From: Panacagrimonas perspica
Lineage (GTDB): Bacteria; Pseudomonadota; Gammaproteobacteria; Nevskiales; Nevskiaceae
Direction: 5' to 3'
DNA length: 64,000 bases
Assembly (NCBI RefSeq): GCF_004364935.1
Contig: NZ_SOBT01000008.1
Coordinates: forward strand, 809,534 to 873,533
Position numbers and translations under genes: made by a program
The notes under the pieces: generated by a model
The model's database searches: none
What the model saw: the letters and a program-made list of their open reading frames with translations, nothing else
Told to the model about the DNA's origin: nothing
Part shown: in pieces, positions 57,171-58,793 of the stretch
How positions within the stretch are numbered: position 1 is the first letter of the stretch
Layout of the letters: the number at the start of each line of letters is the position of its first letter

Positions 57171-57405
57171 GGAAGTGCGGCGCGGTCGCGGCGTCGAGGG
57201 GACGGTCCATGGTAGCGGGCCCGCGGGCCGGGCTGTGACGCGGCATGCGCTCCGCCCGGGTGCCGTGGCGAAGGGGCAGGAAGGCTGAAACCGGGCTGAC
57301 ACGAAGTTTCCGCCCCATGAACGACGCCGGACATGGCCGATGCGTAGCCTGGATTCCGTCGAACACATCCTTCTTCGCAACCCACTTCAACCTCTGGAGC
57401 TACCC

Positions 57406-57720
57406 ATGAAAACCTCGAAATCCTTCTTCCGCCTGATCGCCGTTGCCGCGCTGCTGTCGGCCGCCGCCGCAGCTCCCGCCCACGCCGCCCGCTTCAACAA
57501 CGGCACGGAATTCAACGGCCGCTTCAACAACGGCATCGAGCGCAACGGCCGGTTCAACAATGGCGTTCAGTACAACGGTCGCTTCAACAACGGCCTCCAG
57601 CTCAACGGTCGTTTCAACAACGGCCGCTTCAACAACGGCGTGATGCTGCAGGGTCGCTCGCCCGACGGTGTGCAGGTCGGCCAGCCCGTCGCCGTGACGC
57701 TGCCCGCGTCGGCCCGCTGA
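57406..57720 (+). CDS. Small secreted protein built of RFNNG decapeptide repeats
   Basis: A 104-residue protein with a signal peptide (residues 1-27, hydrophobic LIAVAALLSAAAAAPAHA, cleavage after AHA). The mature chain is almost entirely repeats: RFNNG begins at residues 29, 39, 49, 59, 69 and 74. Four full units follow the pattern RFNNG-[TIVL]-[EQ]-x-NG; the fifth is cut to five residues and the last two units are degenerate (VMLQG, RSPDGVQVGQ). Regular Asn/Gly with alternating aliphatic residues is compatible with a beta-solenoid or amyloid-like strand stack. GGAG is 6 bases before ATG 57406; a terminator-like hairpin follows. I know no named family with this repeat. It contains no cysteine. 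Confidence 0.8.
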   Translation: MKTSKSFFRLIAVAALLSAAAAAPAHAARFNNGTEFNGRFNNGIERNGRFNNGVQYNGRFNNGLQLNGRFNNGRFNNGVMLQGRSPDGVQVGQPVAVTLPASAR

Positions 57721-57727
57721 GCCTCGT

Positions 57728-57758
57728 CGCCGGCTCCGGCCTCGCGCCGGGGCCGGCG
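57728..57758 (+). terminator. GC-rich hairpin after the RFNNG gene
   Basis: CGCCGGC-T-CCGGC pairs with GCCGG-G-GCCGGCG (13 bp, one wobble) around loop CTCGC, 7 bases after the stop codon. It is followed by CTTCCTC rather than a true T-run, so it may be a weak or Rho-assisted terminator or a 3' stabiliser. It implies the small gene is a single transcription unit. Confidence 0.55.
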
Positions 57759-57782
57759 CTTCCTCGACCGGCCTCCATTCCC

Positions 57783-58793
57783 ATGAACCTTCGTCCGACG
57801 CTTGCCACGCTGACGTCTTCTGCGCGCAGCCTGCTGCTCGCGCTGGGAACGGCGCTGGGGTTCGCGTTCGTACTGAAGGCGCTGCTGCTGATCGTCAGTG
57901 GAGAATTCGGGCTCGACACGCCGGGCGTGATCGTTCGGGGATTCCTGCATCCCGGTCTGGCGGTGTTCGGCGGCGGCCTGCTTGCCGCGCTGGCCATCGA
58001 GCTCGTGCTGACCGGCTGGGCCGCGTCCTCGCTGCGACGCCTGCTGATCGCCCCCTCGGATTCCGCTCGAAGCGACCTGTTCTATCTCTTTCTCGCGCTG
58101 TCCGGCGGCATCGCCGCGTCGGCGACGCTGATCTCGGCCGGCCTGGTCGACGCCGCGGTGGCCCTGCTGGATGCCCGCAGCCATCACGGTCCGCTGGTGG
58201 ACGCGCCGATCTGGATGGCCGCACCGCTGCTGTACCTGGGCATGACGTTCTTCAACTACTGGAACCACCGCCTGCTGCACACGCGCGCGCTGTGGCGCCT
58301 CCACGCCGTACATCACTCCGCCACGGAATTCACGATCGGTACCGCTGCGCGGATCTCGCCGATGGAAGCCGTGCTGATCGCCGTTCCGCAGGCGATCCCG
58401 GCAGCGCTGCTGGGGGCCTCGCCCGACGCGATCCTGATCGCCTCGATGGTCGCCTCGTTCGAGAGCCTGTGGACGCACAGCAACCTGCGCGGGCTGGGCT
58501 GGCTCGAACGCATCGGCATTTCGAGTCCGCGTGCGCACAAGATTCATCACGCGCGCGATGCCCGTTTCCACGATCACAACTTCGGCGACCTCGTGCTGAT
58601 CTGGGACCGGCTGTTCGGCACCTACATGGATTCGCGCAACGCACCCGCGGATCTTGTGCTCGGTGTCGACGGCATGGGTGATCGCTACGACTCGCGCCAG
58701 CCGCTGCGCGATTTTCTGCAGGTGCACGTCGACTGGGTCAGAGATCTGATCACGCGCGTTCGTCCGCGTCCGCTGCCTGCGACCACGAGCTGA
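57783..58793 (+). CDS. Fatty acid hydroxylase/sterol desaturase-family membrane di-iron enzyme
   Basis: A 336-residue membrane protein with several helices and the three histidine boxes of the family: HRLLH (in FFNYWNHRLLHTRALW), HAVHHS, and HKIHH (in PRAHKIHHARD), which bind two irons. Members oxidise C-H bonds of lipids or sterols using O2. The N-terminal ~130 residues form extra helices (SLLLALGTALGFAFVLKALL). The substrate is not predictable. ATG 57783; no strong ribosome-binding site is seen. Confidence 0.9.
   Translation: MNLRPTLATLTSSARSLLLALGTALGFAFVLKALLLIVSGEFGLDTPGVIVRGFLHPGLAVFGGGLLAALAIELVLTGWAASSLRRLLIAPSDSARSDLFYLFLALSGGIAASATLISAGLVDAAVALLDARSHHGPLVDAPIWMAAPLLYLGMTFFNYWNHRLLHTRALWRLHAVHHSATEFTIGTAARISPMEAVLIAVPQAIPAALLGASPDAILIASMVASFESLWTHSNLRGLGWLERIGISSPRAHKIHHARDARFHDHNFGDLVLIWDRLFGTYMDSRNAPADLVLGVDGMGDRYDSRQPLRDFLQVHVDWVRDLITRVRPRPLPATTS

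Follow-up and report, generated by a model that had tools for sequence, protein, structure and literature searches.

Canonical pentapeptide-repeat proteins carry small residues at position i-2, two before the central hydrophobic residue. Curli/Fap-type functional amyloids are repetitive and rich in Asn, Gly and Gln, and have a signal peptide. In the literature searched, no paper was found on the ADYC domain (PF20032), and nothing on the repeat-ADYC system described here. In Caulobacter, the secreted pentapeptide-repeat protein YjbI is reported to act at the surface, where it silences the signalling of envelope stress (PMC12864828). A table in a preprint has an entry for a pentapeptide-repeat protein, with myxobacteria, and ADYC is not mentioned in the portion available (PMC12919014).

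We analyzed a repeat gene within a stretch of 64,000 nucleotides, referred to as the window. The encoded protein is a real member, atypical and orphan, of a widespread and apparently uncharacterised family across phyla.

Results

Repeat gene of the window

The features of the repeat gene and its surroundings are collected in Table 1. A hydrophobic segment followed by ..PAHA/A, the slash marking the putative cleavage site, was read at the N-terminus, and a helix at residues 6-20 was predicted in the AlphaFold model. The signal peptide that the first-pass annotation had placed before the mature chain was thus borne out, with cleavage predicted from the motif, and the stated mature length of 77 residues, free of cysteine, was exact. 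The terminator-like hairpin placed after the gene was only partly right, because the hairpin is stable (-33.7 kcal/mol, z -2.27 for the region 57718-57775) but lacks a T-run, and the scan around the repeat gene returned neither a terminator nor a sigma-70-type promoter.

Table 1. Features in and around the window repeat gene.
Feature	Position	Strand	Basis or remark
GGAG, ribosome-binding-site-like, 6 bases 5' of ATG	57396..57399	+	read from sequence
Repeat-protein gene, predicted exported product, 104 aa	57406..57720	+	ORF; family profile match E 4.5e-25, the protein itself being one of the 16 rows of the profile
Putative signal peptide, residues 1-27	57406..57486	+	cleavage predicted from AXA motif
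Tandem array, period 30, 4.5 copies, 81% matches	57489..57624		TRF
Eleven in-phase quintets, RFNNG TEFNG RFNNG IERNG RFNNG VQYNG RFNNG LQLNG RFNNG RFNNG VMLQG	57490..57654	+	
Tandem array, period 15, 63% matches	57513..57639		TRF
Degenerate final quintet RSPDG and conserved tail VQVGQPVAVTLPASAR	57655..57717	+	alignment of 16 rows and wider relatives
GC-rich hairpin between repeat gene and next gene, no T-run	57728..57758	+	folding and terminator scan
FA_hydroxylase-family membrane protein (PF04116, E 2.1e-31)	57783..58793	+	62 bases downstream of repeat gene

RFNNG starts at residues 29, 39, 49, 59, 69 and 74, in ten-residue steps with a single five-residue step. Counted modulo 5, the ten NG dipeptides of the mature sequence all fall into the same phase; when this sequence was shuffled 20,000 times, no phase held more than five NG, and none reached ten. 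The earlier count of six RFNNG motifs in an Asn/Gly-rich repeat chain was exact. The decapeptide unit was not borne out, as the unit is a pentapeptide and its relatives consist of tandem (hydrophobic)-x-(L/F/I)-(N/Q)-G quintets; the five-residue "slip" is then simply one unit. At the DNA level, the six RFNNG units differ by three silent changes (CGG, AAT, CGT) and encode the same protein sequence, as would be expected if this sequence has been maintained.

Family of NG-quintet proteins

Three traits of the family as defined here, namely an export signal (read from sequence), in-phase N/Q-G quintets and a VAVTLP tail, are present in the window protein. A single-sequence search of 61 genomes with the window protein gave matches in five of them (G000, its own, and G004, G020, G047 and G038). 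Within G000, six paralogues were matched, at E 1.3e-11 to 1.8e-5. The matches in G000, G004 and G020 were short proteins of like build with signal peptides. The G047 match, a Ser/Asn/Met-repeat lipoprotein-like ORF, and the G038 match, where no repeat ORF passed the filter, were not counted as relatives. In the profile search, seven family genes were found in the window's own genome (C1:345k, C1:484k, C1:866k, which is the window gene, C2:243k, C2:249k, C2:752k and C3:440k); weaker profile matches in this genome, from E 3.3e-4 upward, were other proteins or were left unread, and lie outside the seven.

The protein is not isolated, as its genome holds seven such paralogues and its family spans phyla. 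Among the outcomes that were to refute the first-pass proposal was a lack of orthologues outside one strain; for the family, orthologues exist. The RFNNG unit itself, however, was absent from all other repeat proteins read in 58 genomes of the taxonomic family (Nevskiaceae). Two other genomes of the genus were covered: G002 (480 contigs) gave no repeat match and G001 gave one repeat gene, at an ADYC locus. A repeat number that varies among relatives was borne out, with 4 to 17 NG/QG quintets in 18 proteins.

AVTL near the C-terminus is invariant in all 16 aligned members, the window protein included. The conserved form in aligned relatives is ..VAVTLP, a tail type that the window protein also has, and some wider relatives carry SVTL, AVRL, AIKL or IELPPETR instead. 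The 169 quintets collected from seventeen relatives were mostly of the form I/P/L/F/M/V - x - L/F/I/M/V - N/Q - G. In the window protein, just 3 of 11 quintets (VQYNG, LQLNG and VMLQG) are hydrophobic at both positions 1 and 3, and R-F-N-N-G makes up 6 of the 11. The window protein is thus an odd member of the family and is atypical in these two positions, whose hydrophobicity is a typical, not a strict, trait.

At E 0.001, the family profile matched 36 of 398 phylum genomes, the window's own included. Inspection covered 23 loci: five in the own genome, taken from the profile search above, two in G214, both for a single repeat gene that adjoins ADYC, and 16 in other genomes. Those 16 were set aside: nine held unrelated repeats, proteins of the canonical pentapeptide type or proteins of great length, and no ORF passed the filter at the other seven. 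Because the profile is unspecific at E 0.001, a threshold of E 1e-6 was used for the 58 Nevskiaceae genomes.

A second repeat family was seen in the window's own genome, at L085 (G000:C1:351460), L086 (G000:C4:87286) and L090 (G000:C1:2350887). These proteins have signal-like starts, their units contain Cys and end in NGPSLDG, and no Pfam family scored above its cut-off. In two of the three members, the tails (LGTMIIAITMP in L085, LGTVVIAIDKP in L086) resemble AGTVVAVTLPE.

Linkage and fusion to ADYC

Several relatives sit upstream of a gene matching Pfam ADYC (PF20032). Among the 58 Nevskiaceae genomes, ADYC was present in six (12 genes), the repeat family in seven and both in six (Fisher 1.7e-7, without correction for relatedness). 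The genome with the repeat family alone is G469, where the contig ends 743 bases downstream of the repeat gene and no ADYC match was found. A repeat gene lies upstream on the same strand for 11 of the 12 ADYC genes; at one of these, G004:C1, a hydroxylase gene stands between the two. The exception, L026 (L026/L127), is in the window's own genome and has no repeat gene near. This genome holds three ADYC genes, and four of its seven repeat genes (C1:345k, C1:866k of the window, C2:752k and C3:440k) are near none. Of the 398 phylum-sampled genomes, only the own genome and G214 had ADYC, with a repeat gene beside ADYC in both.

A search of genome contigs with the ADYC alignment gave 51 loci. By the labels of their records, they come from Nevskiales, Alphaproteobacteria and myxobacteria, from a single Leptolyngbya and from a few further sources; the counts below are not independent, because several loci can stem from each of a number of related species. 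With a criterion of at least 3 in-phase NG/QG within 60 residues, 17 loci were fused, with repeats N-terminal to ADYC, at 24 an upstream ORF of its own carried the repeats, and 10 showed neither arrangement. Raising the criterion to at least 4 retained 32 of the 51 loci (12 fused, 20 separate). As a control, the other ORFs of these loci were counted up to a length of 300 aa: 0 of 2,723 had at least 4 in-phase NG/QG, and 7 of 2,689 had at least 3. The linkage and fusion of the family to ADYC are solid.

By record name, 15 of the 17 fusions are myxobacterial, one is from Comamonas and one from a Deltaproteobacteria record. Not every myxobacterial locus is fused, as the Nannocystis loci L037 and L072 are split. 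The myxobacterial fused proteins start with lipoprotein-like signals, as read from their sequences. Eleven upstream ORFs were inspected again, the weakest included, and all eleven carry repeats; their starts are signal-peptide-like wherever seen, L072 having been read at its C-terminal end only.

Among the ten ADYC loci that fail the criterion, two (L034 and L041) are truncated where their contigs begin. Short ORFs that start like signal peptides and hold few NG occur at L055 and L039, and no repeat ORF was recognised at L033, L057, L058 or L059. At the remaining two, L042 and L052 (Microvirga), the upstream ORF has LASNR/LAANR-type quintets without Gly and an LPDGT tail, and is possibly a Gly-less variant of the same repeat chain.

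In a Pyxidicoccus ORF (L059:4606-6630, + strand), a TIR domain (residues 8-107) is followed by a single hydrophobic segment (192-210), by a CarboxypepD_reg-like match that stays under its cut-off and by ADYC. This receptor-like layout was seen in a single case, and the third-position GC of the ORF is low (0.60 vs 0.76 to 0.86), which makes its status as a gene uncertain. The order TIR-membrane-ADYC would place ADYC outside and TIR inside, and thereby suggests that ADYC recognises something outside the cell.

Neighbourhood of the window gene and nearby kinases

In eight genomes, the best match of the window hydroxylase was the G004 gene (141.6 bits, 36% identity; next 96.4), and the reverse search from the G004 hydroxylase returned the window gene first (143.4 bits; next 70.6), so that the two are reciprocal best hits. 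The order in G004 is repeat gene, FA_hydroxylase, ADYC, hybrid histidine kinase and response-regulator-like gene. Given this order and the reciprocal hydroxylases, the window locus looks like a G004-type operon minus its ADYC and kinase end. No ADYC gene lies beside the window copy, where the FA_hydroxylase gene is followed by an RNase T2 gene on the other strand. The four flanking window proteins scanned were the FA_hydroxylase, a Rhodanese, the RNase T2 and one with a match far below cut-off.

In the window's own genome, three of six repeat loci have a HisKA gene at a distance of no more than 7 kb (P 0.026; P 0.057 at 10 kb). Across 16 Nevskiales repeat/ADYC loci, a set that omits G469 for its short contig, nine have a histidine kinase, three have a Trans_reg_C-kinase-TPR protein and four, the window included, have neither. 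Against the base rate of the own genome (0.117), nine of 16 kinase loci corresponds to a probability of 2e-5, the loci not being independent. The histidine-kinase loci are L027 (cut by the locus end), L029, L031, L032, L123, L124, L126, L130 and L131, and most of the kinases carry PAS and receiver domains. A hydropathy scan of seven of these kinases gave nothing beyond weak segments, in three of them (1.62-1.73) and in or near receiver or Hpt domains, and direct sensing of the exported pair by these kinases is therefore improbable.

At the other three loci (L030, L122 and L129), proteins with Trans_reg_C, a protein kinase domain and TPR adjoin the repeat genes (L030:2414-5230, L122:10409-13198 and L129:11386-14205), and a hydrophobic segment follows the kinase domain in two of the three. 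Near two of the repeat/ADYC loci, proteins with signal-like starts and a common GRDGNWFN stretch were also observed (L123:8186-9325 and L131:14778-15878); that of L123 has no Pfam match at E 0.001.

Structure predictions and nature of the repeats

The AlphaFold model of the window protein, from a 17-row alignment, had a mean pLDDT of 52.8 and a pTM of 0.22, showed no strands and stayed under 50 at residues 28-85. For the mature fused protein of Archangium (L069, 40-row alignment), AlphaFold2 gave a pLDDT of 80.1 and a pTM of 0.81. Its ADYC part was mostly above 90, and its repeats (residues 23-55) mostly under 50. Residues 62-72, right after the repeats, form a strand by DSSP, in a block of pLDDT 91. 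This strand matches the VAVTLP tail of the split proteins by position, and on this match we based the proposal that the tail docks on ADYC. A tail profile run against 40 ADYC proteins gave no significant match to the fused ones, so that the equation of tail and fused strand is one of position; the best ADYC matches were the N-terminal hairpins of split ADYC proteins (E 0.02; best of 800 shuffles 0.04).

Foldseek found no match under E 0.66 between the fused ADYC model and PDB, a result that does not show a new fold. The ADYC profile reached E 0.002 at best among PDB sequences, in its repeat part. A likeness to MBHA, the Myxococcus haemagglutinin, in a VIA comparison (Z 4.3, rmsd 3.2, 65 aligned) was not used, as it reaches into the low-confidence repeats.

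The repeats might instead form a secreted pentapeptide-repeat protein (Rfr, a four-sided beta-helix) at the outer-membrane surface, which by analogy would act like YjbI of Caulobacter; we regard this as unlikely. The period of five residues fits such a helix, and the repeat-family profile gave 12 PDB hits (E 0.003 to 0.99), of which 10 were Qnr, Rfr, NP275 or designed 'beta1'-type chains, the last of which we take to be pentapeptide-based. At E 0.1, 16 relatives gave Pfam matches to Pentapeptide_4 (3/16), Pentapeptide (2/16), Pentapeptide_3 (1/16) and Decapeptide (1/16). Weak pentapeptide matches occurred in two of five scanned relatives, L008 (E 1.7e-5) and L010 (E 0.0036), but both stay below the cut-offs, L008 at 25.4 bits vs 27, 24.4 vs 38 and 19.8 vs 20.2, and L010 at 17.8 vs 38, and the window protein has no Pfam or NCBIfam match at E 1. 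Position i-2 also argues against this fold, being large in 153 of the 169 family quintets (I 39, P 37, L 25, F 20, M 16, V 16) and R in 6 of the 11 window quintets. AlphaFold confidence is mostly under 50 across the repeats, in the window and fused models alike. YjbI itself is a repeat protein that is reported to be secreted and to reside on the cell surface (PMC12864828).

Discussion

We propose that the window protein is an orphan paralogue of a two-part envelope protein whose repeat chain uses its tail to dock on ADYC, a reading to which we give about even weight for and against. The family consists of short, predicted exported proteins of tandem pentapeptides that end in a beta-prone tail (..G.PVAVTLP..), and the gene just downstream usually encodes the partner, an ADYC-domain protein predicted to be exported or lipid-anchored. 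At most myxobacterial loci, both halves are joined in one lipoprotein-like polypeptide, in which the repeats precede ADYC. As an extended or flexible chain, the repeats may serve to display or space ADYC, or to touch a surface ligand, and ADYC would be an extracytoplasmic recognition domain. A beta strand supplied by the C-terminal tail may be added to the ADYC fold, which would let the split halves rejoin without a covalent bond. The window copy would then be an orphan paralogue that keeps the downstream hydroxylase gene and lacks the ADYC neighbour. It would act in trans, its partner being one of the three ADYC proteins from other loci of the genome; alternatively, as its unusual RFNNG quintets suggest, it may have diverged in use. 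Against docking stand the ten of 51 ADYC loci that fail the repeat criterion, the window gene itself, with no ADYC neighbour, the three further repeat genes of its genome that lie apart from every ADYC gene, the ADYC gene of this genome that has no repeat gene near, and the tail profile without a significant match to the fused proteins.

That the window copy has no function, as a paralogue in decay or one of a recent expansion, is improbable. The absent ADYC neighbour, the divergent RFNNG quintets and the lack of a counterpart in G001 or G002, the other two genomes of the genus searched, would suit such a copy, but the ORF, signal peptide, RBS-like site and tail are all intact, the six RFNNG units have changed only silently, and the linkage to the hydroxylase is kept. 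The functional amyloid or self-assembling surface fibre put forward by the first-pass annotation is very improbable, for although the protein is Asn/Gly/Gln-rich, regular and of low complexity, with a signal peptide and paralogues in one genome, five-residue units would leave little room for strand-turn-strand, Pro occurs in many quintets of several relatives (PILQG, PVLQG), the pairing with ADYC would go unexplained, and the amyloid or beta-solenoid reading of the pattern finds no support in an AlphaFold model without strands, itself a low-confidence model from a shallow alignment and hence compatible with ordering or assembly.

Beyond the window copy, repeat chain and ADYC may together be an undescribed two-part envelope recognition system of Pseudomonadota, Myxococcota and one cyanobacterium, split or fused, completed through the tail strand and wired to signalling; taken as a whole, this extension of the docking proposal is tentative and somewhat doubtful. 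Its wiring to signalling is suggested by the Nevskiales hybrid histidine kinases with response regulators, or the Trans_reg_C-kinase-TPR proteins, encoded nearby, and by the one Pyxidicoccus TIR-ADYC ORF. The occurrence of the repeats beside or fused to ADYC, at 41 of 51 loci, gives a first testable handle on both. If split halves do rejoin through one strand, they would be a natural two-piece display system.

With regard to known systems, the window protein shares repetitiveness, Asn/Gly/Gln richness and a predicted signal peptide with Curli/Fap-type amyloids but has a five-residue unit, and no amyloid assembly gene was recognised among its four flanking proteins. ADYC domain proteins (PF20032) are the partner or the fused domain in relatives of the window protein, whereas the window protein has neither an ADYC domain nor an adjoining ADYC gene. 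The five-residue period is common to the window family and to pentapeptide-repeat proteins (Qnr, MfpA, NP275, YjbI), from which the family differs by a large hydrophobic residue or Pro at i-2, by N/Q-G, by the AVTLP tail and by the ADYC partner. YjbI is also secreted (PMC12864828), and export is predicted for the window family. YjbI is the nearest functional precedent, as an analogue and not as a relative shown here.
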